In this document: positions 2,103 through 42,919 of the stretch, piece after piece | How the letters are laid out: the number at the start of each line of letters is the position of its first letter | Numbering within the stretch: the first letter of the stretch is position 1 | IMG/VR virus record: IMGVR_UViG_3300042445_002485 | Span: 1-43,602 of that record | Direction: 5' to 3' (one strand) | Origin: a virus | Length of the DNA: 43,602 nucleotides | Notes under the pieces: generated by a model | Seen by the model: the letters and a program-made list of their open reading frames with translations, nothing else | Databases searched by the model: none | Told to the model about the DNA's origin: nothing | Position numbers and translations under genes: made by a program

Positions 2103-2194
2103 TATGTTATACCATAATTACCATAATGCATTTTACATGACGGTCATTGTCAGAAGTTAATGGTGTGCCGTTTCCCCCATGGGAAAGCCTGACG

Positions 2195-2232
2195 CATGGC
2201 AAGCTGGACATGGCAAGCTGGACATGGCAAGG
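2195..2232. repeat. 14-bp tandem repeat
   Basis: The unit catggcaagctgga is present at 2195-2208 and 2209-2222, followed by a partial third copy to 2232. It is non-coding. Confidence 0.85.
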
Positions 2233-2277
2233 CCCCGCCCGGCAACGCATAGGCGAGGGGTAAGTAAAGAGGGGCGG

Positions 2278-2299
2278 GGGGACCTGCATTAGGGTCCCC
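2278..2299 (+). terminator. GC-rich hairpin, possible weak terminator
   Basis: A 7-bp perfect stem (2278-2284 with 2293-2299) encloses an 8-nt loop. It lies downstream of the 1486-2102 gene pair but no clear U-tract follows, so termination would be weak or factor-dependent. Confidence 0.4.
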
Positions 2300-2508
2300 T
2301 ATAGCGTAGCGGTGAAAGACAGCTGGGCTTGAGTTTAGACTGGCCCCCATGATTTATATCCTGATGACCACGCACCCAGATTAATTTTCCAACCCCCAAT
2401 TTCATCTTCCTAACATATCACCTTACTAACATATGCACTGAAACGCCCTCCCCCGTGGTAGTTTTTTACCCGTAATTCCAGACATCCTAACATATGCATC
2501 CAGACACG

Positions 2509-2544
2509 AAAAAACCGCCACCGGGTAGTCCGGAAGCGGCTTTT
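2509..2544. terminator. Bidirectional intrinsic terminator
   Basis: Stems 2515-2518/2536-2539 and 2521-2524/2530-2533 are separated by a 2x2 internal loop. A6 lies on the left and T4 on the right, so leftward transcripts see a U6 tract. It sits 10 bp past the end of the leftward accessory operon. Confidence 0.8.
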
Positions 2545-2553
2545 CAGATCGTC

Positions 2554-2763
2554 CTAACAGATGAATACCAGCAGACCGGTGACTTCGTCCTCGTTGTAAA
2601 GACCCCACGGGTTGCCATTCTCTCCGTGGCGCTCGCGCTGCTCCCGCCCGTCTGCGGAGTGGTGGACGCGCAGGCCGTTGTCCCCGATGAACGCGTTGCA
2701 GCACTGGCAATCTGCGGTGTGCCTGACCGAGTCGCCAAGTGGAATTACGTGGATGATTCTCAT
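2554..2763 (-). CDS. Small conserved phage protein with HVIPLGD and CxC motifs (69 aa)
   Basis: The start at 2763 (MRIIHVIPLGD) is preferred over an upstream ATG because it overlaps the stop of the preceding gene in the usual ATGA coupling. The product resembles a family of small phage and bacterial hypothetical proteins that begin with an H-V-(I/V)-P-x-x-D segment, followed by H, C-x-C and a later HHSxDxRE block. Here these are HVIPLGD, HTADCQC and HHSADGREQRE. The Cys and His residues could bind a metal. No function is known to me. It is the last gene of the leftward accessory operon. Confidence 0.7.
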   Translation of the reverse strand: MRIIHVIPLGDSVRHTADCQCCNAFIGDNGLRVHHSADGREQRERHGENGNPWGLYNEDEVTGLLVFIC

Positions 2764-3017
2764 GGATTTGAATCTCCTTCCAGTTCTGCCAATCTCAAAC
2801 AACGCTCCTGTGAGAGGCTGAATTTAAACTCGCACGCGCAGACTGGGGCTTCCTCCCGGGCTTTCTGGAGGGCGAGCCACTCCTTGGTGCGGCGGATAAA
2901 ACCGATCCCGTCCTCGTTGACGACAGGTGGGCGGTCGTAGAACGAGTTCGGGATGCTGTCATCCCACCCGTCGTAGGGGTCCAAGCCCCAGTGGGGGTCG
3001 TCAAATAATTCATACAT
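2760..3017 (-). CDS. Hypothetical accessory protein (85 aa)
   Basis: An acidic N-terminal half rich in aromatic residues (MYELFDDPHWGLDPYDGWDD) is followed by a basic helical segment (RRTKEWLALQKAREEAP) and a CAC pair near residues 60-62. There is no membrane segment. The stop overlaps the start of the next gene by 4 nt. The gap upstream of its start (3018-3333) is occupied by a gene on the other strand, so transcription from the operon must cross that gene. The family is not recognised. Confidence 0.6.
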   Translation of the reverse strand: MYELFDDPHWGLDPYDGWDDSIPNSFYDRPPVVNEDGIGFIRRTKEWLALQKAREEAPVCACEFKFSLSQERCLRLAELEGDSNP

Positions 3018-3058
3018 AAAAGTTGCGGTTTGGTTAATTTAGATGATTCCTGAAATTC

Positions 3059-3331
3059 ATGGACCACTTCACATTCTCCTGCGAGAGATGCCATCGTGAC
3101 TTCGAGCCGGACCCCTCCATGGTCCTGCCGGTCACATGGACGAAGCTGGAACTTGACGAGGCCGACGACGACATGGAGGACTACCTCACGCCGGAAGAAC
3201 TGGCGGAGGCGTCGGTGGAGGACTTGGCGGGACTGGGGTTGACGATGGCCGACCGGGACGCGCTACTCGCGGGAGTAGAGGTCCAAGTCGGTGCGCGGAT
3301 CGTTTGTAGGAGTTGCCAGTCTGAAATGTGA
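3059..3331 (+). CDS. Zinc-ribbon protein encoded against the operon (90 aa)
   Basis: Two CxxC knuckles bracket the protein: CERC at residues 8-11 and CRSC at about 84-87. This spacing is consistent with a zinc ribbon whose long insertion is acidic (ELDEADDDMEDYLTPEELAEASVEDLAGLG). The gene runs opposite to the leftward operon around it and ends 2 bp before the end of the next leftward gene. I see no promoter for it and no SD sequence. The cysteine pairing makes the reading frame convincing; the partner (DNA, RNA or protein) is unknown. Confidence 0.6.
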   Translation: MDHFTFSCERCHRDFEPDPSMVLPVTWTKLELDEADDDMEDYLTPEELAEASVEDLAGLGLTMADRDALLAGVEVQVGARIVCRSCQSEM

Positions 3332-3333
3332 CG

Positions 3334-3435
3334 CTACCCGTCGTTCACGTCCCAGTAGGTCATGAGCAGGATGCAGGCGACGATGGTGCCGACCATCATG
3401 GAGAGGAGGCAGGTGGCGATGTCGGTCGTAGTCAT
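3334..3435 (-). CDS. 33-aa single-pass membrane peptide
   Basis: A 33-residue ORF encodes a hydrophobic segment from about residue 6 to 26 (IATCLLSMMVGTIVACILLM), flanked by MTTTD and YWDVNDG. One membrane-spanning helix is predicted by eye. Its ATG overlaps the stop of the upstream 109-aa gene (ATGA at 3432-3435), the coupling used by its neighbours. It is the second tiny membrane peptide in this phage. It is too short to call a holin. Confidence 0.5.
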   Translation of the reverse strand: MTTTDIATCLLSMMVGTIVACILLMTYWDVNDG

Positions 3436-11156: not shown

Positions 11157-11672
11157 ATGCCACCGACCGCGCCAAAAACCCGCTTACCGATCCCGCTTCG
11201 CGATTTTTCTGAAAATGAAAAGCGCATGCTGCGCTCCCTTATTGACTCTTCCGCTGGACCTGACGCGTGTTGGCCTATGTCCGGCGCGGCAAACGCCGAA
11301 GGCTACGGATACATTTGCCTCGGCGGGGTGCAGTATAGGGCGCACCGAGTTGCTTTACACATCGTCGTCCCTTGTCCTAACGGCAGCCTGATGGCGCTCC
11401 ATTCGTGTGACAGCCCTGGGTGCTGCAACCCATCGCACCTTCGTTGGGGGACAGCGGCGGACAACGCCAGCGACTGCACTTTACGAGGGAGGCATAAATC
11501 ACGGGCTGCGGAGCGGCACCACGGGGCGAAACTTAATTGGGAAAAAGTTAAATTAATTCGTGAAGTTTACGTCCCAAACAAAATTGGTTGTAACGAAATT
11601 GCCAAAAAGCTTGGCGTCAGCCACGCAACCGTTTCCCGCATTGCTAATCACTTAATTTGGAAAATTAAATAA
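11157..11672 (+). CDS. HNH homing endonuclease
   Basis: The central HNH_3-type core is visible: AHRVALHIVV, then the metal/active-site stretch ALHSCDSPGCCNPSHLRWGT (about residues 78-97), then DNASDC. These give the expected His-Asn-His order with extra cysteines. The C-terminus carries an HTH (GCNEIAKKLGVSHATVSRI) for DNA recognition. This is the usual design of free-standing phage homing endonucleases, which nick a cognate site in related phages and spread by repair. Codon use is less GC-biased toward the 3' end (ttaattgggaaaaagttaaattaattc), which supports recent acquisition. It is inserted in the replication operon. Confidence 0.9.
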   Translation: MPPTAPKTRLPIPLRDFSENEKRMLRSLIDSSAGPDACWPMSGAANAEGYGYICLGGVQYRAHRVALHIVVPCPNGSLMALHSCDSPGCCNPSHLRWGTAADNASDCTLRGRHKSRAAERHHGAKLNWEKVKLIREVYVPNKIGCNEIAKKLGVSHATVSRIANHLIWKIK

Positions 11673-23302: not shown

Positions 23303-23744
23303 CTTAACCGAGGCCATCGAAGCCTTCGGGGCTTCAGGATTAGACCTCTCCCCACAGGAGTTGGTGGACCATGTCGAGCACCAGATGGTGACCCACTACC
23401 CGTTGACGGAAAACCCGGTCACCCACGCGTTCACGCCGGGGATGTACTGCCGGACCATGTACATGGCGGGAGGGACACTTGCCACGTCCAAGATCCACAA
23501 TCAGGAACACCAGTACGTCATCGTCAGCGGGTCATTATCCGTATGGACAAAGGAGACCGGAGCCGTTACGATTCACGCACCGTTCCACGGCATCACCAAA
23601 CCGGGAACCCGCCGCGTTGTGTACGCCCACACCGACGTGTGCTGGCTCACTTTCCACCCCACTAACGAAACCGACTTGGCCGTTATCGAAGATCAAATTA
23701 TCATGAAGCACACCAACATTTTGCTGGAAGGGAGTCCGTCATGA
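23289..23744 (+). CDS. Cupin-fold phage protein (151 aa)
   Basis: A single cupin barrel is visible: RTMYMAGGTLATSKIHNQEH (about 57-76), then YVIVSGSLSVWTKETG and HAPFHGITKPGTRRVVYAHTD. The first motif keeps the HxxxH metal-ligand pattern and the second carries the GxxxxxPxG turn. Such small cupins are common in phage tail gene clusters, with unproven roles in the virion or in sugar binding. It overlaps both neighbours by 4-14 nt. Confidence 0.8.
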   Translation: MSDTDLTEAIEAFGASGLDLSPQELVDHVEHQMVTHYPLTENPVTHAFTPGMYCRTMYMAGGTLATSKIHNQEHQYVIVSGSLSVWTKETGAVTIHAPFHGITKPGTRRVVYAHTDVCWLTFHPTNETDLAVIEDQIIMKHTNILLEGSPS

Positions 23745-24820
23745 CTTGGGCAAGCGTCGCTGTAAGTGTCGGCGGAGGCATCGCAAGCTCCGCCATTTCT
23801 GCTGGTTCTGCCAACAGGCGTGCCAACGCCGCGTCCAAAGGACTCGACGAAGCCGTGGCCTACGCCCGCGCCAACCCTTCCGCGTTCGGCGAGAAGCTCG
23901 ACTGGTCCGGTGTCGATTACAGTCCGATGTTCAAATCCGATCCCGGATATGGCAACATCGCGGGCAGCACCATTGCCGGGAACCAGCGCAATCTTCCGGC
24001 GAACTTGAACCTGATGCGGGAGACCAATCAGGCCATCACTAGGGACTCGATGGACCGGATCAACACCCTGTATCCGGGGTTTGCTGCCGCAGTGGGCCAG
24101 CAGTCGCAGAACACGCAGAACTTCCTGCGCGGTCAACTCCCCATGGAGGACCAGAACATGATCACCTCCCGGCGCACCGAGGCTCAGTCCCTCGGCGGCG
24201 GCGGTGCCAACGCCCAGCAGGTCGCTGCCGACCTTGGACTCGCCCGCATGGACCTCATGAACCAAGGGCAGGCGGGGATGAACAACCTCGTCAACATGTT
24301 CAACGCGGTCGATCCGGTGAACCGGCGCGTGAACCCGCAGTCCATGTTCGTGGACGTCGGACAGGCCATCAGCAACTCCATTGCGGAGAACCAGTTTGGC
24401 GCACAGTTTGCCCAGTCCGAGCGCAACGCCGAGTTGGCGTTCGGGATGCAGCCCGACCCACAGAAAGCCGGACTGCTGAACCTCATCGCTGGCCGGGGCG
24501 GTCTGCAAGCGGCCAACCAGCCGACCAGTGTCGCCGGTGCCGCCCTCACAGGTGGTATCAATGCAGGCATTGCAGGGTACACACGGCAGGCGGACCAGCA
24601 AGCGCTCCAAAACCTGTTGCAGCCACAAGCGCCCCCAATGGGTTACCAGCAAGCGGTTGCCAGTTTCGGTGCTCCGTCGGCGGCGGTGAATGGATTCCGC
24701 AACCTCTCCGGAGGCTACGACATTACCGGCGGACAGGGGGGCGGTATCGCCGGACAAGGGGCATTGACCAGCAAACTTATGGCACCAACCAACAATAAGC
24801 CTTGGCCGCTAATTTACTAA
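23741..24820 (+). CDS. Putative internal virion/DNA ejection protein (359 aa)
   Basis: The small-residue N-terminal helix (VAVSVGGGIASSAISAGSANRRA) could insert in a membrane, and a long Gln/Asn/Ala-rich helical body follows (NQGQAGMNNLVNMFNAVDP, AENQFGAQFAQSERNAELAFG). The Gly-rich C-terminus includes GGYDITGGQGGGIAGQG. This layout and the position before two larger internal proteins match the ejection-protein sets of podoviruses. No enzyme domain is seen. The next gene starts 4 bp on. Confidence 0.6.
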   Translation: MTWASVAVSVGGGIASSAISAGSANRRANAASKGLDEAVAYARANPSAFGEKLDWSGVDYSPMFKSDPGYGNIAGSTIAGNQRNLPANLNLMRETNQAITRDSMDRINTLYPGFAAAVGQQSQNTQNFLRGQLPMEDQNMITSRRTEAQSLGGGGANAQQVAADLGLARMDLMNQGQAGMNNLVNMFNAVDPVNRRVNPQSMFVDVGQAISNSIAENQFGAQFAQSERNAELAFGMQPDPQKAGLLNLIAGRGGLQAANQPTSVAGAALTGGINAGIAGYTRQADQQALQNLLQPQAPPMGYQQAVASFGAPSAAVNGFRNLSGGYDITGGQGGGIAGQGALTSKLMAPTNNKPWPLIY

Positions 24821-24824
24821 CATC

Positions 24825-27020
24825 ATGGCTGTTACTCCAGATCCCGTCGGCGCATATAACCAGTCTTTCCAAACGGCGGACACCTCCCGCCGCGACTACG
24901 AGCGCCTTGAAATGCAGCGCCAGTTGCAAGCTGAGGCTGCGATCCAGCGTGCCCGCGAGCAGAAGGCGAGCGACTTCAAGATGATGATGGAGGCGATTGG
25001 TCGTCGGGACGACCTGAAGCAGCGGGTTTTCGAGAACGACATCAGAACCAAGCAGCTTGCCAACGACACCGTGACGGCGCAGGCGAACGCCTACCGCGCC
25101 CGCAACCCGATTTCCCGCAGCGGGCAGGGCTTACGCGAATTTTCTCTTTCAGGGGTTCCGCAACCTGCCATTCCGGGAGATGGCACTACGTCATCTACGG
25201 TTCCGCCTATGGGAGACGCAAATACAGGCGGCACGCCGTATGGTGGTGTAGAAGGCGAGCTATCAACAGTACCTGTTGTTGCAGATTTTGGCTTACTTGG
25301 GCCAAATGGACCCAATGTACCGGGTACGCCTGCTGCGCTTCTTCTTCCCGGAGATGAGCTTCCACTTCCACAAACGCAAGCGCCCGCACCCGCCGTGCCG
25401 CCCGCCGTCCCCGCTCCTACCGAGCCGCAGTACGCCGCATTTCCGCAACCCATCGGAGATTTAATCCCTAGCACCGCCCCTGTTGCGCCGTCGCCAACGG
25501 CGACCCCAAGTGCTGCCGTTCCAACGCAGCCAATGCCGCAGATGCCCGCCGCGTCTACCACTGCGCCCGCCGTGTCCGCGCCTGTGCCTCGACGCAACGA
25601 TTTGATGGGGTACATGCTGAATAGAACCGACCCTTACACCGACAGGATTGAAATTCCACGCGTTGCGCAGATGCCGGAAGTCCCGATGTTTGGCCAAGCC
25701 GACATCGCCGCCCAAGGACGTGATCAGTTAAACAAACTGGCCGAGTTTCAAGCGCAGGCACAAGTGGGGGCCACTTTAGCTTCCAGAAATGTCGCTAACG
25801 CAACTCGAGAGCTAATGTCCGGAGAATTAACCCCGAACGGCGTTCAAGAGGCACAGAAATATATTGCACAGCAAACACTCGCCGCCACGCAGGCTTCCCG
25901 CGCAGATGCAAAAGCAGGCCAGCAAATAGCCCAAAACGAGGAAGTTTTAAAAGGGATTGAATTGCGTCAAGGTGCCCTTAACCGCTTGGGTAACCTCAAC
26001 GGCGTGCTGCCAATAGGGGATCGCAGGCAAATCTACCAAGAAGCGTCAGACCCCAGAATGGCGCAGTTGGCAGAGCAGAAAATCGCCGTCCTTACCGAGT
26101 ACGACGCCTTTCGGCAGCTTAATGGGATCACCAATGCCAGCCGTGGATACAGCACGGCAGAGCAAGTGGTGCGGGCAAAACGAGAACTCGATTCGCCCGA
26201 TGCCATTAAGGACCGCAAATTGGTTGAGGACTCCCAAGCATATCAAGCTGCTATCAAAGCACGTCCAGACATGGACGAAAAAGCCAAGGCGGAACTCGAA
26301 CTGGAAATTGGGAAAGCCAATCCCGCGCAAATCCGGCAGAACCGGCTTATTACCCGACTCAACGACGCACTTGAGGCTGACATGCTCAGACCGGAAAAGC
26401 CTAAGGATGTGGTCAAACCGGAAGACATCAAAGTGAACCCTGCTACAGGAACTACCGCTGCTGCCGCGTCCGGAATTGACCGCAGCGGGGGCAGAGACAT
26501 TCTGAGCAATCGGGAGAAAGTTGCTCAAGCCAACCAAGCTGCTGGCAACGAATACTGGGGGGCAAACACCGCCGACGTCGCCCAGCAAGTCCTCATGGAC
26601 GGAGGCAGGGACAAGAATGGCAATATCATCCCACCGTTTAGCGTCGCGCTTTTGAAGAAGATTGCGGAAGGCCAAGCCCCCGTGGAGGGGACTAGCACGG
26701 GCATAGAAGGGGCAAGCATGGGCGCGTCCCGTGTGGGTGCCCCGATTTACGGTGAAAAGTACGTGGACACCATTGTCAAAGAGAATCTCTCCAACTGGAC
26801 GCCGACCCAAGGCGACCCTGTTAAATGGGGGCGTCAAACGCAGCCCACAGCGCAAGACTTCCTCAAGATCGCGGCTAAACAGAGGCTGGACAAAATCAGG
26901 GCGGATGCCGCAAATGCGGCAGTACCAGCGGCCCCAGTGATGCCGCAACAAACTCAAGCCGCCGCAAGTTCTGTTCTTCAAAAATTTGCCCTTCCACTCC
27001 CGCCAGAGTTCGGTAAGTAG
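24825..27020 (+). CDS. Putative internal virion protein, coiled coil and Pro-rich (731 aa)
   Basis: The N-terminal part (residues 20-95) is a charged coiled coil (YERLEMQRQLQAEAAIQRAR). A long Pro/Ala/Thr-rich linker follows at about 100-260 (PQTQAPAPAVPPAVPAPTEP). The rest is helical with repeated charged segments (EKAKAELELEIGKANPAQIR). Such extended proteins in the late cluster usually belong to the ejected core. Base composition falls in parts of 25850-26400, where codons are less GC-biased. No enzymatic domain is found. Confidence 0.6.
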   Translation: MAVTPDPVGAYNQSFQTADTSRRDYERLEMQRQLQAEAAIQRAREQKASDFKMMMEAIGRRDDLKQRVFENDIRTKQLANDTVTAQANAYRARNPISRSGQGLREFSLSGVPQPAIPGDGTTSSTVPPMGDANTGGTPYGGVEGELSTVPVVADFGLLGPNGPNVPGTPAALLLPGDELPLPQTQAPAPAVPPAVPAPTEPQYAAFPQPIGDLIPSTAPVAPSPTATPSAAVPTQPMPQMPAASTTAPAVSAPVPRRNDLMGYMLNRTDPYTDRIEIPRVAQMPEVPMFGQADIAAQGRDQLNKLAEFQAQAQVGATLASRNVANATRELMSGELTPNGVQEAQKYIAQQTLAATQASRADAKAGQQIAQNEEVLKGIELRQGALNRLGNLNGVLPIGDRRQIYQEASDPRMAQLAEQKIAVLTEYDAFRQLNGITNASRGYSTAEQVVRAKRELDSPDAIKDRKLVEDSQAYQAAIKARPDMDEKAKAELELEIGKANPAQIRQNRLITRLNDALEADMLRPEKPKDVVKPEDIKVNPATGTTAAAASGIDRSGGRDILSNREKVAQANQAAGNEYWGANTADVAQQVLMDGGRDKNGNIIPPFSVALLKKIAEGQAPVEGTSTGIEGASMGASRVGAPIYGEKYVDTIVKENLSNWTPTQGDPVKWGRQTQPTAQDFLKIAAKQRLDKIRADAANAAVPAAPVMPQQTQAAASSVLQKFALPLPPEFGK

Positions 27021-27025
27021 TAGTC

Positions 27026-30000
27026 ATGGCAACATGGGAGCAAATTATCGCCGACGAAGAGTTTCAGAGTCTACCCACTTCTGGACAACAGTTGGTCCGG
27101 CAGCAGTGGTATGACGCCACGGTCCTTCCAGAATTAAAAGCCACTGGGATAGACGAGGTTAACCTCAACAATCTCCGCAACCAGCACATAACGGAATACG
27201 ACAACGGCCAAGGGTACATCTCGTCCTTCGCCAGTGCCGCCGGACGCGGCGCGGCCTCCACCTTCACCTCCGCCGTCCAAGGCGTCGGTGCCCTCACCGG
27301 CAGCGAAGCCATTGAGCAAGCTGCCCGCGAGATGGACACGGCGGTCACGGAGAACCTGACGGTCAACCCGTCCATGGAGAAGACCAACTTCACCGGCAAC
27401 GTGCTCGGCAACGTGGCCGGGTTCCTCGCGCCCGGTATGGCAGGGATGAGGATCGGCAGAGCACTGGGTGCCGGGGCCGAGTTGGTAGGCGGAACTGCCG
27501 CCGAGGTCGCCGCCCAAACTGCCGCCCGAGCCGCCAGCGCCCAGTTGGGCGGGCGAATCGCCGCCAACACCACCATGCTTGCCTCGGGCGCGGGCAGCGG
27601 GGCGCAACAGGCCGACCGATACGGCATCGAAGGTCCGGAGCGCATGGGCATGGTCCTCGGTAACGCGGCCACCGAGATGCTTTCCGAGAACATCTTCGGC
27701 CTTGGTTCCGAGTTGAACACGATGAGCAGGCTCGCCGGACTTGGCGGGCTTGGGGCAAACGCGGCAAGAAGGACCGGCGGGTTCCTCGCCGACGTCGGAG
27801 AGAACACGGTGGAAGAAATCGCTGCCAACGTGGGGTCCAACCTCGTCACTTCAACCTTCGCTCCAGAAGGAGTAAAAACCCCTGGAATACTTGAGGGCAA
27901 CCTCGAAGCAGCAGCCGGTGGTGCCATCGGCGGCGCGTTCTTCGGCGGCATCAACCTGATGCGTCCCCTTCCGCCCGTTGCTCCGAGACCTTCCGAGGCC
28001 ATCAGCGCCGGGGTCGCCCAGCAAGCGGCAGCGGCTAACGATCCTGAAGCTGCGGCTGCGCATCCGGGAGCCAAGTTCCAACCTACCCCTGCTCCGCAAA
28101 TTCCGGGGGCTATTACGTTTGATCCTACTGTCCCCAATCTGTTGACACCCGCTGCCGGGGAGCTACCTCCACCACCCGGATTTGCAGAGACAACTCCTGC
28201 GGAGGCATTTCCAGCAGCCTTGCCGCAAGGGTTACCTGCGGCGGCGGCAGTTCCGGGAGCCGTGCCAGAAGCATTTCCTGCGGCGGAAGCGCTACCCGCA
28301 GCGCCTGCTGGGGCACTACCTGCGGCAGAGGCGCTCCCTGAGTTGGACATCTCGCTTCAGGCGGGCGCGTACACGGGGGATCTGCTGCAAGGAAAAGAAG
28401 TCATAGGGGAGGGTTCCGAATCCACAGTTTACAGGGACGGAGACTCGGTCATTAAAGTGTCCGAGCCCTACAACGATAACTCAGAAGAAACATTCCAAGC
28501 GCGGGTGGACCGCGCAATGGACATTGATAATTTGATAGGGGATGGAACCTTGTCAGTCGAAGGATTTTACCGGTCGAAGAACGGCACAAAAAACCCAGTG
28601 TTCCGCCAAACTTTTGCGGAAGGTCGGCCAGCTACCCGTGAGGAGATACAGGCATACATGGAGTCCCGTGGGTTCCAAGTTAAAGAAGCTGGAACTACCA
28701 CGGACACGTTTGTAAAAGTATCCGATGGTGTGGAAATCACCGCATCCGATTTAGACGGAGCCAACGTGGTGGTAGGGACCGACGGCAAATTCCACGTAAT
28801 TGACGCCGACTTGGTTCGGAGACCTGCGCCAACCCAAACTGCGCCCGTGACGCCGCCAACGTCTGCGGTGCCGCCCGTTGGCGAGCCAGTCGTGGCAGGA
28901 CGTTTTACGGGAGTTACCGAAGCCCCTCCCACAGAGCTGTTCCACTCGGGAGAACTTCCTGAAGGGCTGGATAGCATCGACCCAATGCGGACGACCGGAG
29001 CAAAACAAGGCAAACGCGGAAGAGACTTCGGTGGGTTCTACGCAGGGCCAGCCGAAACCGCCGCCAAATACAAAGGACCGAAAAACCGGCTGGCTATTGC
29101 TCCGGGAGCGCGGGCCATGCGGGTCGCAGCCAGAGGAGCCATCGAAAGGCTCAGTCTCAAAGACCGGCAGGATCTCCTTGACCAAGGCGTGGACATTATT
29201 TCAGGCATCGACATCAGGGGTCTCCCTGAGTCCGTGATCCTTAACAAAGACGTGATCCTGTCGGTTGAGTTGGACACGCAAACGGCACCAGCGGCGACAC
29301 CTGTGACAGCACCAGCGGGTGCGGTCCCTCCCATGACGGAGCAGGCACCGCCCGTCACGCCGCAAACGCCTGCGGTGCCGCCAGCAGTTCCAGCCGTGGC
29401 ATCACGGGGAGCCACCCCCAGCGACCTGATCGACCAGACTGGCAGACTGACTGTCGAGGGTGCGCAGAGCATGATCGAGGCGATCCAATCGCTCGGCCTT
29501 ACCACCGCTCCGTTCGTCATCAACAACACCGGAGTGGCTCCCGGCGTCATCGCCCCTCCTGTCGCAGGATCGACCACCCCGGTGGACGGCAAGCCCGTCA
29601 TCTTTTTGAACCAGAGGAGAATGACTCTGGACACGCCGCTCCACGAGACGACTCACCTGCTCACCCCCACTTTGTTTACTGAGCAGCGGGCGCTTTACGA
29701 TGTAGGAGCCGCGCTGCTGGCCGACTCACCTTTGCGTCAGGCTATCGTCAACCGGTATGTCACCGAGGCTGGCATGACCATGAGCCCCGAGCAGATCACT
29801 GAGGAGGCAATGGTGACCGGGTTGGCCAACAACGGGGCCGAGTGGCTCAGAGCCTACGCTGGCAACGCCAAGATGACACGGGCCATCAAGGAGTTCCTCG
29901 CCAAGGTGCGCGAGTGGTTCGACGACTTGATGTACTCCAAGGGGTTTGACCCCAACATGAGTCTTGAGCAGTTTTACAAGAAGGTGAACCGGCAGATTCT

Positions 30001-33000
30001 GGCCGGGAAGCTGCAACAGCGAGCGACGAATGCGCCGGTGCAGGCGTCGTCGCTGGCTCCTACCGCAAAAGGCGGAAATTTTGAAGTAAAATACGTAGCA
30101 GCGGATGAGTACGACGCAGAAGAAGGAGGTGTTGACCCATATGAAGCAGATACTGCGGTAGCAAAAATAGCCAAGGAGACGGGCGTCGGGATTCTGCGCG
30201 GCAAGGAGTTAAAGGCAGTGGCCACCGATAAAAAAGGTGACATCGTCGGCGGACTTTATACCGAAGTGGACGGAGACGAGTTTTCGTTTGACGTCGTCGT
30301 GAGTCCGGCTTCCCAACGTCAGGGTGTAGGAGAAAAACTGGCTCAAGAAGCGTTCAGCCTGTTCCAACAAGAGAGCGACGGGCGCGAGGATCTGGCGTTC
30401 AAGGTAGAGGTGACAAACCCCGGAATGGAGGTCCTCCTTGGTAAATACGGGTTTAAGGTAGAACGGCGCGTCGGAAAGACGGCGATCATGATTCACCCAA
30501 CAAACGCGCCACGGAAGGCAAAGACGCCCTCCGTTTCTGCCGACACCCGCTTCTCCCTCGCCCCCGCCACTCCGCAGGACGTGCTGGACAGAGGTTATCA
30601 AATGACCAAGGAAGAGTACGCGGAAGCCGTCTCCGCCTTTGTTAAAAAGCCAAAAGACGTTTTTTACATAGGAGAAATTGAGGTCGTCCGCAATCCGTCT
30701 AACGCCGACCGCCAGCGGATGAACAGCGAAGTTCGCTCCGAGTACGGCAGAACCTTAATTGGCGATGACCCTACTACGCGTTCAACCAAGGACCAGTTCG
30801 GTAACACTTGGGTGTGGAAGGCCAACGAGGGGATGCACTCGCAGGTCGAACCCGGAATTACGAAAAGAGAAGGGGTCGATGTAAATCAGAATAACAGCGT
30901 CCCAGAACACTGGCAGCTTGTCCGTAAGGCCATCGGAGAAAAAGTGGCCGTACCAGCTAAAGTCCAAGCACAGTACCCTCAATACAAGGAGTTCTTCCAG
31001 AAAACAAAGTTCTCCCTCGCCCCCGCCACTCCGCAGGACAAAGCCTACGTGGCTGCGGTCGAGAGCGGCGACGTGAAAACGCAGCAGAAGCTTGTCGATG
31101 ACGCGGCAGAGGCTGCGGGAGTCCCCTCCGTCGGCGTAAACATCAACGACAGCGACAGCGACTACACAGGGATGATTCTCCGTGGGGAAAAAACGGTCGA
31201 GACGCGGGACACCGAAAATAACGCACTCAAAAAATATGTCGGGAAGCGCGTCGGCATAGTCAGAACCGGGATTAAAAAGGCAAAGGCAGCGGTGGTGGGA
31301 TACGCCACAGTCGGAGAGCCAGTCCGGTACAATTCCGAGGAGGAGTTCGCTGCCGACTTTACAAGGCACCGGGTCACCGGAGGCAAGTTCGCTTTCTCCG
31401 GATTCAAGATCGGCTACCCAATGGTGGATGTAACCCCCATTGACCCCTACGATGCACCGGAAGCGCCCGGACAGACGGTCATCAAGACGCGTCCAATCCA
31501 TGAGCCTGTCGCCTACGACGAGAACGACAAGATCATCCTGCCATCCCAGCGGTTTGACAACTTCACCCGCTACTCCCTCGCCCCTGCTGAACAGAAAGTG
31601 GACGCGGATAGCATCAAGGCCGAGTTCTCCCCGCAGACGCCGGAGGAGCAAACTGCCTACGACAAGGCATCGTCAAACACTGTTACCGCTAGAAACCCAT
31701 ACCTCGCCGTTGCCGCTGTCAGAATGCGCGGCAAGAAGCTGACGGTAGACCGCTACGCCGAGCTTGTTGAAAATCTCGACCCGTTTACCGTCAAAGGGGC
31801 TGAGAAAATTCCGACTGAAGCAAAAATACTGCAATACATCTCAAGTGAAAAGACCGAAAAGGTCATGCAGCCTATTCCAGAAGGAACGCTTACCGAGTTC
31901 AGAATTGATATTCCGACATACAATTCCTCGACGGCTAAGGGAGACACGGTCTACGCAATCACAGGCCACGAACCGGTAGGTGCTACAGCGACGCGAGTTG
32001 GAAAACCCATATCCTACCTCGGTGCGGCTAAAGTTATAAATGCCACGTTCTCAACCAGAGCTATTTCTGGCAAAGGTACTGCGGTACAAATTGCCGAAGG
32101 AGCAGGAAAATTCCCGCTGGCTACGGTAAAAGGCAATTACCAAGCAATCACGTCCCTGCCAGAAAACATTAATGACCCGAAAGTGTGGACGGAGGTCGGC
32201 TACAACCCGATCCGGTCCAGCGGTTTTGTGGACGTCAGATCGAACAAGTACGTGGTGGGGGGCTCCGAGGCGATCATGGTGGGGCCGCGAGTGTTTGTAA
32301 AAGACCCAGTTTTCGAGTCTAGGCCAACAGGATTCATCGGCCCTGACACCCGCTTCTCCCTCGCCCCCGCCGTCACCAAGCCTTCCAACGTGGCTCGCAA
32401 CCAAGCGGGCACGCGGGTGCGCGTGCTGATGGAAAACCAGACCTACGAGGGGCAGACCATGGACGATGCCAGAGACCAAGCGCTCTCGCTTTACAACGAC
32501 AACGTGGACAAGGGTTTTACAGTGGCCCAGCACATGGCGTTCATTCAGGACTTGCGGACCAACGCCGGACGCAAGTACCAAGACATGACCTACGGCGCTT
32601 ACGGCGGCATGTACGTGAGGGATTTGATGGACGAGTCCACCAACCCTGAGACTGACCCAATGTCCCAAGCGTTCGCCAAGCGCGAGGCCGACCGGGTCGC
32701 CGCCATGATGGCAGAAGAAGCCGCCATTGGTGGTCGTCAAGCCAAGGCGTTTGACCTCTACGACCGCATTGCCAACACCCCCGCGATGACGGTGCGGCAG
32801 TACGAGCAACTGCTGCCCTTCGACGGCAAGCAGAACGTCAAGAACGACTTCGACAAAGCCGCCACGACCGTCAGAGAGGAGATGGAGGGTCTAGGCAACG
32901 AGGCGATCAACACCGCCCCCGAGGACGCCATGACGTCCATGCTCGGCCAGCGGGTAGCCGCCGTGGTGAGGGGGGAAGAAACCTCCAACGTCGGCGAGGT

Positions 33001-36000
33001 GGTCCTCGACGAGGTCAAACCTGCCGAGACGATGGAGGATCTCCCGGCGTGGTTTTTGGAGGGGCAAGCTACCCTCGGAGCAGAACTGAGCGCCGACATC
33101 GACGAAATCACTACTTTACTCGCGTTTAAAGCCTACCTGAAACGCAAGGACGGGACTTACTCGCTCACCCCGGAGGAGCGCAGCGCCCAACTTGCGGCCA
33201 TGATCAAACAGATGGAGGACAGCGGTCAGACCGTTGCCGACGCCGTCGCCGCCACCGACAAGCGCCTCGCCGAGTTGACCGGCAAGTTCAAAAAGCCTCA
33301 ACCAAAAGCCAAACCGAAAGCTGCACCGGTCCCAAAAGAGGCTCCTCCCGAGGGGGAAATCCAAGACATCGTCGCCGCCCGGATCAACCGCTTGCTCGAC
33401 AAAATCGTCAAGCCTTCCACCAGTCCCGCCAAAACCCGGACGGACAAAGAGATCCTTGTGGACGCCATCGTCTCCACCATGATGTCCAAGGCTGGGCTCC
33501 CCGCCGACCTCAAGGCTGGCGGCGACAACGTCACCCTCGCCTTCGGCCTCGTGGTGGCCAACCCGCAACTGGCAGCGCAGTCGGTGCAGGCCGTTTACGA
33601 CCTGCTCCAGTCTGATCCTGCCTCTGCCAACATCACCAGTTCCGACAAGATCCGGGGCTTTATGCAGATGCTGACCGGCCAGTCGTTCGCCGACGGCAAA
33701 GCCTACGGCGAGAAGCAACTCAACACGGTGCTGAAGAACGAACTGAAGCGCCTCAAGATCAGCGTCAACGACGTGGCCATGGACGCCGCTCTGACCGGCA
33801 AGACGGTTGAGCAACTGGAAGCCTCGCTGCGTGACCCTAGCCGCGAACTGAGCAAGGTTCTCTCCCCCGACGCCCTCAACAAGGTCGTGGCCGCAGTGAC
33901 CGGGGAGTTCCGCAAGAGCGCTGCCGAACGGGCTGCATACTTGCAGCAGGAAAAAGCCACTAACAGGGTTCGGAGTGACATGGCGGCGGACCGCCGCATG
34001 GAGTTACAGAACGCCAAGGATGAGGAAAAATCCGCCAAAGCCGCAGCCGAGCGAGCTAAAAAAGCCGTGCTGGATACCATGGCTGCGTATAAAAAAGACC
34101 AAGACAACAAGGTGAAGAAGGCATCGGAGTCTGTCAGAAAAGCCATGGCAGAGGAACTCCGCACTCTGAGAAAAACGGCACTGGACACCATGGCTGCGTA
34201 CAAAAAAGCGCAGGACAAACTCGCCGCGCAAGCGCAGCAGGAGGCAACCCAAAGGGTCCGAAGCGACATGGCGGCGGATCGCAAAATGGCTGCACAGTTT
34301 GCTAAGAAGCAAGCGTCCGACGCCAAAGCTGCCGCCGACAGGGCCAAGAAGGCTGTGCTGGACGCCATGGCTGCGTATAAAAAAGATCAGGACAACAAGA
34401 TAAAGAAGGCATTGGAGTCTGTCAGGAAAGCCATGGCAGAGGAACTCCGCATTCTGAGAAAGAAAGCGCTGGATACCATGGCTGCGTATAAAAAAGCGCA
34501 GGACAAACTTGCTGTGGAGGCGCAGCGCGAAGCGCGTGACGCCATGGTCGCGGAAGAGCGTTCCATGCGCAAGGACCGCGAATACCGGCTGGCACTTAAC
34601 CGCAAAGCCCGCAAGGCGATGCGCCGCAAGCTGGCCAAGCGTGGCGGGTTCATGATCCCACTGGACCAATCCGAGGCCGAGGAACTGCTCGACCAGAAGC
34701 CCAAGACCGTTCTGCAATACCTCGCCCGCGAGTATGGATTCAGTCTTGCAGACATCATCGGCATGGCCCGCGATCAGGACCGCCAAGCCACCCTCGAAGC
34801 GAAGGTCGGCAATCTCGCTCAAGCCCTCGGCCTGACTAAAGAGCAGGCCGACAAATTCATGGGGCCGGTCATCGCCGAGGCGATGAAGTACATCTCCGAA
34901 GCCCGTAAAAAAGAGGTGTCCCAGCGCATCAACCGGGTGCTCACGCCGGTCATCGGCAAGAAGAAAACGCAGAAGACCGAGGCCGAGAAGCTCATCAAGC
35001 TGGCAGAGATGGGGGGCCTGACTGCGGACAATGTGGAGAAACTGCTGCTCAACAGCAAGAACGCCAAGGAATTTACCCCGGAGTTCCGGCAGGAGTTGAT
35101 CGACCTGATCGCTCAAGCCAATGACCCTTACCTGACGGAGGAGACCCGGGATAAATTAAAAGGGACGTTCCTCGACAAGATCAAGGCCGCTCGTGGAATT
35201 ACCGTCCTCAGCCTGCTGGGAGAGTGGACCATGTCCAACATCTTCATGAGCATCCTCTCGACGTTCAAGGTGAACTTCGTCTGGGGATTCATCAAAGCCG
35301 CGAGCGACAGCGGTATCTTCATCACAATTTCTGGTCCGGCAGCGGCCCGCGCCGACGCTATCGCCAAGGGAGTGACCCCCGCCCCCAGACTCGCTGTTGC
35401 CAAAGTTCTCTTCCGGCAGTGGCTTCGCGGCTACGCTGTCAACATGCAGCATAACGCAGCGTTCATGTGGTCGGAAGGTTTGGGCAAGGACGAGAGCGAC
35501 ATGACCTCTCAGTTTGCCAACACCGGGATGGAAATTCTGTCGCGTGTCAAAGACGCGCAAATTCAGTGGTCCAATGAAGGCAAAGTGCTGCCGAAGAGCG
35601 CACAGAAGGTCATCAAGGCCATGGCGGCGTTTGGCAAATACACCCGCCGGACCATGGTGGCTTCTGACTTCATTAACCGGACCTCCGCTTTCGAGATGTC
35701 CAAGGTCCTCGAAGCCATCAAGGTCATGCAGGCCAAGGGCGGCGCGGCCAGTACGGCCACCATCCAGCGGGAGATCGACGACGCGCTTTACGGCGGCAAT
35801 TTCAAGGACGCCTTCGCCAAGGCTAACAAACAGGCCGACGACGAGATCGCCGAGAAGAAACTCGGTAAGGCTGAACGAGGCATCCGCGTGGGGCGAATCA
35901 TGGACGAGATGCTGGGCAAAAACCTCGGAATGACCGAAAAGCAAACGCAGGAATACTTGCAGGATTCACGCGAAAACGCCAAACGCTGGTCGCTCGCTAA

Positions 36001-37234
36001 CCAGACCGAGGGTATTTTCGGGGAGATCAGCAACCTGATGCTGGCGGCTACCCGGAAAATTCCCGCCCTGAAATTTGCCTTGCCTGCCATCCGGATGCCT
36101 ATTGCGGCGTTTTCGCAGACGCTTGATTGGATGCCTTACGGGTTCCTCCGTCTCTACGCCATCAACAAAAATAACAACGAGACCGAGAGCTTTACCAATT
36201 ATCTCTTAAACAGTAAGAATGAGTACGGCAACTGGAACAAGCCCGTGGGCGGAGTCCCTGCCTACCGGAAGACCGACCTCATGGCCAAGGCGTCCATTGG
36301 GTCGCTGATTATGCTCGGGCTGTTTATCAAAGCGGCTATTAGCTTTGACGAGGACGAGGACGAGGCCGAGTTTTACATCACGGGGTTGGGTCCGTCCGAT
36401 CCTGCGGAGAACAAGGCATGGCGGGAGAAGGGCAATGCACCGTTTACCTTCCGCTTTAACGGCGGCACCGGCTTCCGCTTCCAAGAGTCCCCGTTCTACG
36501 GGATGCTGGCCCCCATCGCCGCATGGTCCGACGCCAACCGCTACGGCAAACCCGGCGAGGCCGAGTCTGACCGCATAGCCTACGCGATTGGCAAGACAGT
36601 CTCGGGCTTCCAAGAAGCCGTGGTCATGAAGAACCTCTCCGACATTCTGGCGGGTGGGTCGTCCTACTCTGCGGACGGTCAGTTGCGCAACTGGTCCAAA
36701 GCCAGTTCCCGGCTGGCGTCCAACGTCCTGATGCCTCGCCTTGGCGGTGAGATCAACACCATCCTCTACGGACCGCAGGACCAGAAAGCTCTCGGCTGGG
36801 GAGGTCGAGCGCTGGCAAACGTGCCGTTCGTCCCGTCCTTCAATAACAAACCCGCACAGGATTTCCTCGGGCGCGAGATCCACACCAAGCGGGAAGGGAT
36901 GCTCGGGGAGATCTACCCGGCGCTGGCCCACCGGGTTATCGCCCCGTCACTCGACGATCCTATCCTGAACTTCGTCGCCAAGATGAGCCCCAACTTCTTG
37001 GCCACCACCCGGCGCTTCAAGGACGGCACGCGGGTGATGGACAATTACGAGTTCGTCCGCAAGTGGAACGCCGCCGCCGGGGTCAAGATCCGCGAGTACC
37101 TCACCCCTGAGCGGATGGCGTCCTACGAGCGGAAGCTGGCCAAGGACAAGCCAGATGCCCAGACCGAGTTTAACGTCGAGATCAACAAGATCAGGACTGC
37201 GGCGCTTCGGAAGTTTTCCGAGGTGCAGTTTTAG
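27026..37234 (+). CDS. Giant multi-domain polyvalent-type virion protein (3402 aa)
   Basis: At 10.2 kb this is the largest gene. In order I see: an Ala/Gly-rich helical N-terminus (1-300) and a Pro-rich linker (to 450). A kinase-like domain has GEGSESTVY at 461-469, K477 and D593 in HVIDADL. An ADP-ribosyltransferase-like segment has ELFHSGE near 639 and GFYAGPAETAAKY near 671. A metallopeptidase-like HETTH motif is at 873-877. A GNAT acetyltransferase has QRQGVG at 1097-1102. An ASCH-like domain starts near 1383 (ILRGEKTVETRD). Two unrecognised domains lie at about 1180-1325 and 1520-1775. A long helical region carries a duplicated 96-residue coiled coil (2315-2506). A hydrophobic C-terminal part has segments near 2725 and 3089. 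FSLAP or YSLAP linkers separate several domains. Such proteins are thought to be injected with phage DNA to act on the host. Confidence 0.85.
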   Translation: MATWEQIIADEEFQSLPTSGQQLVRQQWYDATVLPELKATGIDEVNLNNLRNQHITEYDNGQGYISSFASAAGRGAASTFTSAVQGVGALTGSEAIEQAAREMDTAVTENLTVNPSMEKTNFTGNVLGNVAGFLAPGMAGMRIGRALGAGAELVGGTAAEVAAQTAARAASAQLGGRIAANTTMLASGAGSGAQQADRYGIEGPERMGMVLGNAATEMLSENIFGLGSELNTMSRLAGLGGLGANAARRTGGFLADVGENTVEEIAANVGSNLVTSTFAPEGVKTPGILEGNLEAAAGGAIGGAFFGGINLMRPLPPVAPRPSEAISAGVAQQAAAANDPEAAAAHPGAKFQPTPAPQIPGAITFDPTVPNLLTPAAGELPPPPGFAETTPAEAFPAALPQGLPAAAAVPGAVPEAFPAAEALPAAPAGALPAAEALPELDISLQAGAYTGDLLQGKEVIGEGSESTVYRDGDSVIKVSEPYNDNSEETFQARVDRAMDIDNLIGDGTLSVEGFYRSKNGTKNPVFRQTFAEGRPATREEIQAYMESRGFQVKEAGTTTDTFVKVSDGVEITASDLDGANVVVGTDGKFHVIDADLVRRPAPTQTAPVTPPTSAVPPVGEPVVAGRFTGVTEAPPTELFHSGELPEGLDSIDPMRTTGAKQGKRGRDFGGFYAGPAETAAKYKGPKNRLAIAPGARAMRVAARGAIERLSLKDRQDLLDQGVDIISGIDIRGLPESVILNKDVILSVELDTQTAPAATPVTAPAGAVPPMTEQAPPVTPQTPAVPPAVPAVASRGATPSDLIDQTGRLTVEGAQSMIEAIQSLGLTTAPFVINNTGVAPGVIAPPVAGSTTPVDGKPVIFLNQRRMTLDTPLHETTHLLTPTLFTEQRALYDVGAALLADSPLRQAIVNRYVTEAGMTMSPEQITEEAMVTGLANNGAEWLRAYAGNAKMTRAIKEFLAKVREWFDDLMYSKGFDPNMSLEQFYKKVNRQILAGKLQQRATNAPVQASSLAPTAKGGNFEVKYVAADEYDAEEGGVDPYEADTAVAKIAKETGVGILRGKELKAVATDKKGDIVGGLYTEVDGDEFSFDVVVSPASQRQGVGEKLAQEAFSLFQQESDGREDLAFKVEVTNPGMEVLLGKYGFKVERRVGKTAIMIHPTNAPRKAKTPSVSADTRFSLAPATPQDVLDRGYQMTKEEYAEAVSAFVKKPKDVFYIGEIEVVRNPSNADRQRMNSEVRSEYGRTLIGDDPTTRSTKDQFGNTWVWKANEGMHSQVEPGITKREGVDVNQNNSVPEHWQLVRKAIGEKVAVPAKVQAQYPQYKEFFQKTKFSLAPATPQDKAYVAAVESGDVKTQQKLVDDAAEAAGVPSVGVNINDSDSDYTGMILRGEKTVETRDTENNALKKYVGKRVGIVRTGIKKAKAAVVGYATVGEPVRYNSEEEFAADFTRHRVTGGKFAFSGFKIGYPMVDVTPIDPYDAPEAPGQTVIKTRPIHEPVAYDENDKIILPSQRFDNFTRYSLAPAEQKVDADSIKAEFSPQTPEEQTAYDKASSNTVTARNPYLAVAAVRMRGKKLTVDRYAELVENLDPFTVKGAEKIPTEAKILQYISSEKTEKVMQPIPEGTLTEFRIDIPTYNSSTAKGDTVYAITGHEPVGATATRVGKPISYLGAAKVINATFSTRAISGKGTAVQIAEGAGKFPLATVKGNYQAITSLPENINDPKVWTEVGYNPIRSSGFVDVRSNKYVVGGSEAIMVGPRVFVKDPVFESRPTGFIGPDTRFSLAPAVTKPSNVARNQAGTRVRVLMENQTYEGQTMDDARDQALSLYNDNVDKGFTVAQHMAFIQDLRTNAGRKYQDMTYGAYGGMYVRDLMDESTNPETDPMSQAFAKREADRVAAMMAEEAAIGGRQAKAFDLYDRIANTPAMTVRQYEQLLPFDGKQNVKNDFDKAATTVREEMEGLGNEAINTAPEDAMTSMLGQRVAAVVRGEETSNVGEVVLDEVKPAETMEDLPAWFLEGQATLGAELSADIDEITTLLAFKAYLKRKDGTYSLTPEERSAQLAAMIKQMEDSGQTVADAVAATDKRLAELTGKFKKPQPKAKPKAAPVPKEAPPEGEIQDIVAARINRLLDKIVKPSTSPAKTRTDKEILVDAIVSTMMSKAGLPADLKAGGDNVTLAFGLVVANPQLAAQSVQAVYDLLQSDPASANITSSDKIRGFMQMLTGQSFADGKAYGEKQLNTVLKNELKRLKISVNDVAMDAALTGKTVEQLEASLRDPSRELSKVLSPDALNKVVAAVTGEFRKSAAERAAYLQQEKATNRVRSDMAADRRMELQNAKDEEKSAKAAAERAKKAVLDTMAAYKKDQDNKVKKASESVRKAMAEELRTLRKTALDTMAAYKKAQDKLAAQAQQEATQRVRSDMAADRKMAAQFAKKQASDAKAAADRAKKAVLDAMAAYKKDQDNKIKKALESVRKAMAEELRILRKKALDTMAAYKKAQDKLAVEAQREARDAMVAEERSMRKDREYRLALNRKARKAMRRKLAKRGGFMIPLDQSEAEELLDQKPKTVLQYLAREYGFSLADIIGMARDQDRQATLEAKVGNLAQALGLTKEQADKFMGPVIAEAMKYISEARKKEVSQRINRVLTPVIGKKKTQKTEAEKLIKLAEMGGLTADNVEKLLLNSKNAKEFTPEFRQELIDLIAQANDPYLTEETRDKLKGTFLDKIKAARGITVLSLLGEWTMSNIFMSILSTFKVNFVWGFIKAASDSGIFITISGPAAARADAIAKGVTPAPRLAVAKVLFRQWLRGYAVNMQHNAAFMWSEGLGKDESDMTSQFANTGMEILSRVKDAQIQWSNEGKVLPKSAQKVIKAMAAFGKYTRRTMVASDFINRTSAFEMSKVLEAIKVMQAKGGAASTATIQREIDDALYGGNFKDAFAKANKQADDEIAEKKLGKAERGIRVGRIMDEMLGKNLGMTEKQTQEYLQDSRENAKRWSLANQTEGIFGEISNLMLAATRKIPALKFALPAIRMPIAAFSQTLDWMPYGFLRLYAINKNNNETESFTNYLLNSKNEYGNWNKPVGGVPAYRKTDLMAKASIGSLIMLGLFIKAAISFDEDEDEAEFYITGLGPSDPAENKAWREKGNAPFTFRFNGGTGFRFQESPFYGMLAPIAAWSDANRYGKPGEAESDRIAYAIGKTVSGFQEAVVMKNLSDILAGGSSYSADGQLRNWSKASSRLASNVLMPRLGGEINTILYGPQDQKALGWGGRALANVPFVPSFNNKPAQDFLGREIHTKREGMLGEIYPALAHRVIAPSLDDPILNFVAKMSPNFLATTRRFKDGTRVMDNYEFVRKWNAAAGVKIREYLTPERMASYERKLAKDKPDAQTEFNVEINKIRTAALRKFSEVQF
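30542..32371 (+). repeat. Four FSLAP linker repeats inside the giant gene
   Basis: Near-identical DNA blocks encode (T/K)(R/K)(F/Y)SLAPA, with the aromatic residue at codons 1176, 1329, 1516 and 1777 (nt 30551, 31010, 31571, 32354). The first two share a longer match that continues into ATPQD. They mark domain boundaries. Confidence 0.85.
33968..34543 (+). repeat. Tandem duplication of a 96-residue coiled-coil unit
   Basis: Two adjacent 288-bp units (33968-34255 and 34256-34543) encode very similar helices beginning VRSDMAADR and containing AVLD(T/A)MAAYKKDQDNK and LDTMAAYKKAQDKLA. Inside each unit the MAAYKK(D/A)QD segment also occurs twice, so the region grew by nested duplication. Confidence 0.85.
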
Positions 37235-42147: not shown

Positions 42148-42705
42148 TTAATTGGGAGCTAAAAGTGCTTTACGGGCCAGAGTTTTTAAACGGACCGTCT
42201 CGCTGCGTTTTGCAATAGCTTCAGGAGACAACTTTCTTCCTAGCTGCGCTTTACGGATGTTTTCGCACGCCTGCGCGGACCGTTTCAACCCTTTTAACGA
42301 CTCTCTGCGCTTTGCGCAGGATTCAGGAGAGTGCTTGCGCCCCGTCTGTCCACGCCGCAAGTTTTTTAAAGTCTCATCCGAAACAACTCTTCCGTTTGAC
42401 AGAGTGTGCAGCGAGGCCCGGTGACCACCTACTTCACGGTTCAGCAGATCGGCTCCCATAAAACGCAGGTAAGAAATTAGAAACTTTTCCTCCTCCTCCC
42501 AGTCTTCGGTTGGGGCCGGACTCAGTACATCAAGAACGGGCAAAAGGCCTTTTGACTTTAGGTTGCCAATCCACGCGTCCTTACCATGAGTGGATTTTTT
42601 ACTGATGTGTTCCCGGAAACGCTGACGAGGGTTGGAGGACGCGCCCACCCACCGAGGGAAACCTGTCTCTGGGTCGTCCAAGATGTATATGGATTTTTTA
42701 GTCAT
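42148..42705 (-). CDS. GIY-YIG homing endonuclease with NUMOD3-like repeats
   Basis: The N-terminal GIY-YIG nuclease has SIYILDDPETGFPRWVGASS (about 4-23), where IYI and WVG stand for the two namesake motifs, then the catalytic Arg in NPRQRFREHI. The C-terminal part carries NUMOD3-like DNA-binding repeats (RRGQTGRKHSPESCAKRRES and RKAQLGRKLSPEAIAKRSET). The start at 42705 (MTKKSIYIL) is preferred over an ATG at 42741. Free-standing enzymes of this kind spread between phages. It sits upstream of the thiol oxidase and portal genes and is probably a mobile insertion. Codons are less GC-rich than in neighbours. Confidence 0.88.
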   Translation of the reverse strand: MTKKSIYILDDPETGFPRWVGASSNPRQRFREHISKKSTHGKDAWIGNLKSKGLLPVLDVLSPAPTEDWEEEEKFLISYLRFMGADLLNREVGGHRASLHTLSNGRVVSDETLKNLRRGQTGRKHSPESCAKRRESLKGLKRSAQACENIRKAQLGRKLSPEAIAKRSETVRLKTLARKALLAPN

Positions 42706-42919
42706 CCAGTTACCAGTACATGAATCTTCTTGACACTGCAAGTGCCGTGCGCGACTTTAGCGCGTCACTGTAACGTCCCAGTCGTGAAGGGATAGCGTAT
42801 TTTATTGCAGGAGTAAAGCGAAACCCTGATCGCAATCGGAAGGCACAATGTGCCCATCCATCTCACCCCCACCCCCCCCACATCCAAGCTCACACGAGCT
42901 TATACCCACTACAAATATT
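42706..42919. other. Divergent intergenic region before the capsid gene
   Basis: This 214-bp gap separates the leftward head operon from a rightward head gene. It contains a near-palindrome around 42748-42766 (GCGCG actttag CGCGT), GGCAC aat GTGCC at 42842-42854, a C-rich tract (42865-42880) and a perfect hairpin AAGCTC acac GAGCTT at 42886-42901. A rightward TTGACA at 42730-42735 has no good -10. A leftward TTTACT-17-TATCCC pair near 42772-42800 is weak. No tRNA is seen. Confidence 0.5.
42886..42901 (+). other. Hairpin upstream of the capsid gene
   Basis: Perfect 6-bp stem with an ACAC tetraloop, ending 18 nt before the ATG at 42920. There is no U-tract. It resembles the other hairpins placed close to start codons in this genome. 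Confidence 0.5.

Follow-up and report, generated by a model that had tools for sequence, protein, structure and literature searches.

The 43,602-base window analysed here, an IMG/VR virus record, carries one very long gene at 27026..37234 on the plus strand. It had been described preliminarily as a single 3402-residue frame, and those coordinates proved exact: the frame starts with ATG and runs without an internal stop. A 62.8-kb contig, L002, matches the right 26.6 kb of the window at 99.996% and holds the identical, intact 3402-aa frame; the gene therefore did not arise from misassembly of a single record. TRF detected no tandem repeats within the gene, and megablast of the gene region against phages gave no match. 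The genome also encodes a primase, an exonuclease, a DNA polymerase and a helicase. Scans of genome contigs found nothing, whether run with the C-terminal alignment or the linker pattern, so that no host is named, and scans with segments from the C-terminal part, the neighbours, the ART region and the cargo recovered no contigs beyond those already known; these collection scans start from short exact peptides, and distant relatives escape them. Elsewhere in the window, a 227-aa protein (198-881, -) contains the Cys-rich stretch CPFASEGCIRAC, and the genes at 11157-11672 (+) and 42148-42741 (-), read by eye, are likely HNH and GIY-YIG homing endonuclease genes. Both of the latter sit where the window does not align with the related L003 phage. 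The features of the locus are collected in Table 1.

Table 1. Features of the giant gene and its neighbours in the window.
Feature	Residues	Positions	Strand	Basis
Upstream 359-aa Gly/Ala-rich protein, candidate small ejection protein		23741..24820	+	Position, composition
Upstream 731-aa protein, candidate second ejection protein		24825..27020	+	Position
Constant N-terminal part: Gly/Ala-rich, then Pro/Ala-rich linker	1-427	27026..28305	+	
Exchange zone A	about 428-614	28306..28869	+	Comparison with L003/L004
Kinase-PolyVal domain	446-596	28361..28813	+	Pfam PF18762, motif positions
ART-like segment	634-757	28925..29296	+	Motifs; weak similarity to L038
Putative zincin-like metallopeptidase segment		29396..30040	+	Motif only
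Cargo cassette 1, likely GNAT	about 1012-1172	30059..30541	+	Pfam, comparison with L003/L004
Seam 1, CTTCTCCCTCGCCCC (RFSLAPA)		30550..30564	+	
Cargo cassette 2, domain without relatives found	about 1182-1327	30569..31006	+	
Seam 2 (KFSLAPA)		31009..31023	+	
Cargo cassette 3: leader, putative ASCH core, tail	1332-1367, 1368-1478, 1494-1514	31019..31567	+	
Seam 3 (RYSLAPA)		31570..31584	+	
Cargo cassette 4, L5gp82-like domain	1531-1776	31616..32353	+	IMG/VR relatives, AlphaFold, PF25735
Seam 4, boundary with constant C-terminal part		32353..32367	+	
Constant C-terminal part, mostly helical	1774-3402	32345..37231	+	
Coiled-coil arm; another coiled coil takes its place in L003/L004	about 2304-2512	33936..34561	+	
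Portal-like protein, 805 aa		39123..41540	-	Size, position, sequence by eye

Both ends of the protein are constant among close relatives. Over the N-terminal part, DNA identity is about 96% with L004 and, from residue 58 on, with L003, and its residues 63-177 show a weak similarity (E 0.002-0.008) to the N-termini of the giant phage proteins L073 and L077. Outside the coiled coil, the C-terminal part has 87-99% DNA identity with L003 and L004. PDB sequence searches gave no significant match for the N-terminal part or for residues 2514-3402, and tblastn with the C-terminal part gave no match. The coiled coil of the preliminary description is visible in the sequence at about 2300-2540. That description also spoke of membrane-like helices, of which one survives: a single hydrophobic segment, 3085-3107, passes the hydropathy threshold (21-residue mean 1.4), and the rest of the protein stays below it.

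Five enzyme-like modules had been proposed, and they fare unequally; the kinase is solid, the GNAT moderate and the ASCH reached via relatives, while the ART-like and HEXXH modules come down to motifs and weak similarity. The kinase-like segment was confirmed by a match of residues 446-596 to PF18762 Kinase-PolyVal with E 5e-11 and 43.2 bits, above the curated Pfam cut-off of 27, and the kinase motifs GEGSE at 461, VIK at 475 and IDAD at 592 are present. Residues 1065-1144 are likely a GNAT domain, with a Pfam match at E 2e-4 and 22 bits, below the cut-off of 27. The ASCH segment of the window has no direct Pfam match, and a PDB sequence search with it gave nothing significant. Residues 1346-1478 have two IMG/VR homologues, L107 and L108 (E 2e-24 and 7e-16), and PF04266 ASCH is matched by two of the three members of this alignment, with a best E of 1.4e-4; the ASCH motif G-x-K-x-x-E-x-R is present as GEKTVETR at 1387. 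The putative assignment of the cassette 3 core to ASCH is supported through these close relatives matching Pfam. Two further domains had been left unrecognised. For residues about 1182-1327 this stands, as relatives were looked for in Pfam and IMG/VR and none were found, whereas residues 1531-1776 turned out to be a widespread phage domain.

The ART-like and HETTH-containing segments are constant in all three phages (window, L003, L004). The ART-like segment carries the motifs FHSG at 639, FGGFY at 668 and PESVIL at 734, and no match to residues 634-757 was obtained by Pfam, PDB or profile-profile comparison. Its comparison with the ART domain of L038, which matches PF18760 ART-PolyVal at E 1e-9, gave a shuffle p of 3e-4 as the best of nine pairwise comparisons. 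These similarities are suggestive of an ART-like domain at most. HETTH lies at residues 873-877 (29642-29656), followed by TEEA at 925 and EE at 926-927; no significant profile match was found for this segment, and a PDB sequence search was likewise null. Comparison by hhalign with profiles from other loci gave probabilities of 0.6% for the ART segment and 8% for the HEXXH segment. AlphaFold of the combined block, with three near-identical rows as input, returned a mean pLDDT of 34 and no usable fold. The motif by itself weakly hints at a metallopeptidase. A plasmid search with the kinase and ART segments gave no match.

The domain of cassette 4 was found in at least 545 confirmed stretches by IMG/VR alignment search, and most of the relatives kept lie in long frames. 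It occurs with up to 50-70% identity in giant phage proteins, most of which have no other detectable similarity to the window protein, and tblastn against phages placed it in a gene adjoining the portal of MW202701 and of the Roseobacter phages CRP-207 and CRP-9. AlphaFold modelled it from 48 sequences with a pLDDT of 93 and a pTM of 0.89. No solved relative was found by Foldseek, and the PDB sequence search was also without a match; among predicted viral proteins, 16 were hit by Foldseek at E <= 1e-3. Some of these partners are annotated as lysozyme, zeta toxin, PcfJ-like or ART-PolyVal-like, and they also include short proteins of Bacillus, Streptomyces and Mycobacterium phages. Phage_L5_gp82 (PF25735) is matched by 42 of the 48 members at E <= 0.1, with a best value of 9e-10, and by the window copy itself at 13-14 bits, below the curated cut-off of 27. 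The domain thus appears distantly related to Phage_L5_gp82 on the strength of the other members alone. Like that family, it and its relatives match PF25735; unlike it, the domain has an additional helical N-terminal part, and most of its copies sit in giant proteins. Arg100, Asp102 and Lys169 are invariant and His122 is nearly so (numbering of the first sequence of alignment A4), and it is plausible from these residues that the domain is an enzyme.

Comparison with related phages changed the picture of this architecture. Three such contigs were found, L002, which is near-identical to the window, L003 and L004. The flanking DNA of L003 (52 kb) and L004 (40 kb) is about 95% identical to the window, and the giant protein has 3823 residues in L003 and 3192 in L004, with both frames open across all joints. 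Residues 58-1007 are shared with L003, residues 1-427 and 615-1011 with L004, and residues 1774-2304 and 2516-3402 with both; these blocks have about 94-99% DNA identity, except for 87% over residues 1774-2304 with L004. Between them, zone A holds the Kinase-PolyVal domain in the window and L003 and an unrelated segment in L004. The main exchange zone (1008-1773) holds the GNAT, the unassigned domain, the ASCH and the L5gp82-like domain in the window. In L004 it holds a segment bearing LPD23 (Pfam PF18838) with its own HEXXH (HEIQH), the same GNAT and an ART-like core recognised by eye, and in L003 it holds repeats that match DUF4097 together with two ART-like cores, again by eye. The L003 repeats, at about 1430-1820, are long and read LNFPALTTVGGxVxxN, as cargo in a virion-type protein.

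The GNAT cassette is about 97% identical in the DNA of L004, where it stands elsewhere in the order, and is missing from L003. The leader and tail of cassette 3 have 89% and 94% DNA identity to an L004 cassette that encloses an ART-like core and not an ASCH. Against the L003 phage, the non-aligning share amounts to 30% of the giant gene and 10% of the remaining window. A second, unrelated pair, L089 and L090, has 525 residues in one replaced by 367 in the other, with C-termini that are 92% identical. The preliminary description had taken the domain order as a possible new combination. Relatives about 95% identical in DNA carry other cargo in the same frame, and the window order is therefore one of several interchangeable arrangements. 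A fixed new architecture is not supported; judged from these alignments, the protein resembles a carrier into which host-attack enzymes can be plugged.

The joints between cassettes share a short sequence. The inner joints of the main zone and its C-terminal border read [RK][FY]SLAPA, and the N-terminal border reads only S-L-A or A-L-A. With up to two mismatches, CTTCTCCCTCGCCCC occurs at four sites in the whole window, all at the four joints, against 0.24 expected. Codon identity between the window joints is 83%, which none of 20,000 draws reached, compared with 29% expected from codon usage; this test treats the joints as independent draws and cannot tell recombination from recent linker duplication. 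In L089 and L090, the shared C-termini begin at K-F-S-[LF]-R-A-E-E and the joint codons differ, so the motif there is conserved at the protein level. Over 49 long frames, redundancy included, [KR][FY]S[LF] occurs 46 times where 14 would be expected. Immediately behind the L5gp82-like domain it stands in 5 of 47 non-redundant relatives, where about 0.3 were expected and 2000 random draws reached 3 at most. Pattern scans also found a wider form, PDIR[FY]SLA, in other phage giants. A limited literature search turned up nothing published on the joint or on the exchange of cargo among polyvalent proteins.

Putative structural genes surround the giant gene, and its genome contains portal-like, capsid-like and terminase-like genes recognised from their sequences by eye. 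The portal-like protein is identical in the L002 and L003 phages; it matched no family, and tblastn against phages was null. In L002, the frame at 25823-27916 (+), from window 42848, encodes a probable major capsid protein with no family match, whose last 100 or so residues resemble a Calx-beta/Ig-type domain. A probable large terminase with the Walker A motif GSASCGKT lies in L014 (4818-6797, -); neither PHROGs nor Pfam matches it, and the phage has a very divergent structural module. Among the neighbouring structural proteins, no PHROGs or Pfam match was obtained except weak tail-fibre ones. Since these neighbours matched no family, we infer virion delivery from synteny alone: the giant protein probably travels in the virion and enters the bacterium by injection. 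In T7 (gp14-gp15-gp16) and P22, the ejection proteins follow the order small Gly/Ala-rich, medium and giant within the structural genes. The order seen here (359, 731 and 3402 aa) is alike, and no sequence similarity to those proteins was found. Internal stretches of the 731-aa protein (24825-27020) do not align between relatives, and it may be partly exchanged too.

The modular layout also resembles polymorphic toxin systems, in which a constant carrier bears replaceable toxin modules. In contrast to these, several modules are carried at once in mid-chain, and the constant part is also C-terminal. The description of the window protein as polyvalent, as Iyer et al. (2017; PMC5512222) define the term, is supported: at least two disparate domains (Kinase-PolyVal, likely GNAT, ASCH-related, L5gp82-like) lie in one polypeptide, and families specific to the class are present, PF18762 in the window and PF18838 LPD23 in L004. 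In that paper, polyvalent proteins are likewise very long chains with unrelated enzymatic domains, thought to be delivered with DNA, and Kinase-PolyVal, a likely GNAT and an HEXXH-type segment are common to them and the window, as is LPD23 to them and the relative. The paper describes the class, suggests that built-in metallopeptidases free the domains and considers that kinases of Verrucomicrobium may vary by recombination of cassettes; it does not use the word 'linker', and no mention of the joint was seen in the sections consulted. The present case differs from the proteins described there in that actual replacement is seen in near-identical phages, with a common joint sequence. The ejected N4 vRNAP, gp50, runs from an N-terminal part through a low-complexity linker, cargo and an HExxH part to a large C-terminus that is helical (PMC12633501). 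It is likewise a giant single chain of comparable layout with companion ejection proteins, which here are candidates by position, and its C-terminus is without known homologues, like that of the window protein. Unlike gp50, the window protein has no detected RNA polymerase domain, and its cargo consists of exchangeable enzyme-like modules.

These data are best explained by a giant virion ejection protein that works as an exchangeable effector carrier, a reading held to be probable though well short of certain. Packaging into the head and passage through the tail along with the DNA would fall to the constant N- and C-terminal parts, and the kinase, GNAT, ASCH, L5gp82-like, ART and metallopeptidase cargo would then work on targets in the host during early infection. 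By homologous recombination at the repeated seams, phages would trade cargo without breaking the frame, with the shared cassette leaders and tails as possible further recombination sites. Such trading would fit an arms race with host defences. A different role for the joint is conceivable, although its chances are clearly the smaller: [KR][FY]S[LF] may mainly be a protease site, at which a polyprotein is cut by its own constant HETTH metallopeptidase or by a host enzyme, with the recombination seam a by-product of site conservation. This is compatible with an effector carrier, and it agrees with the excess of the motif across unrelated giant phage proteins and behind the L5gp82-like domain, and with the L089/L090 joints being kept as protein and not as codons. 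Processing of polyvalent proteins by MPTase domains is also proposed by Iyer et al. (2017; PMC5512222), yet according to the same paper the N4 vRNAP has an MPTase domain and is packaged uncut. Against cleavage, too, the motif is missing at the L5gp82-like border in 42 of 47 relatives, and AlphaFold gave the HETTH segment no support for a peptidase fold (pLDDT 34). More ambitious, and rather doubtful, is the combined proposal that [KR][FY]S[LF] is a general polyvalent joint, both cassette exchange point and a processing site that frees the enzymes within the host, which would make these proteins phage polyproteins with plug-in effectors, and that the L5gp82-like domain is a major undescribed effector family of new fold.

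The effector-carrier reading has further rivals. Phages in general are mosaic through recombination, further genes differ between these phages, and shuffling of domains has been documented for phage proteins (PMC10684548), so that an ordinary large internal virion protein with neutral or decaying passenger domains, swapped by plain mosaicism, might look similar. It is an unlikely account, since motif residues of the kinase, ASCH and HETTH segments are retained, synonymous exceed non-synonymous codon changes in the constant blocks, and the replaced modules are enzyme-like again and again. Chimeric contigs could likewise mimic cargo differences in L003 and L004, as all sequences are metagenome contigs and short repeats are able to join wrong reads. 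Such an artefact is very improbable given three separate metagenome records with open frames over the joints and collinear flanks, the confirmation of the window by L002 and the alike behaviour of the independent L089/L090 pair. An N4-type virion RNA polymerase with other domains attached, suggested by the similar size (3402 versus about 3500), the HEXXH part and the large helical C-terminus, is hardly credible and was rejected; no single-subunit RNA polymerase domain was found in the whole protein by Pfam, PHROGs or NCBIfam, or in the parts tested against PDB sequences.

With an exchangeable effector carrier, a list of odd domains becomes a testable system of fixed delivery chassis, replaceable cargo and short joint. 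Should this joint be cut, the boundaries of effectors could be predicted from it in many giant phage proteins that lack annotation; if it is a recombination seam only, it shows phages renewing their early arsenal with the delivery machine unchanged. The L5gp82-like domain is widespread and has no solved relative, and it merits work on its structure and activity. It also occurs in stand-alone 266-aa frames, in L061, L064 and L065 5689-6486 (+), with RFSL ahead of it at residue 50.
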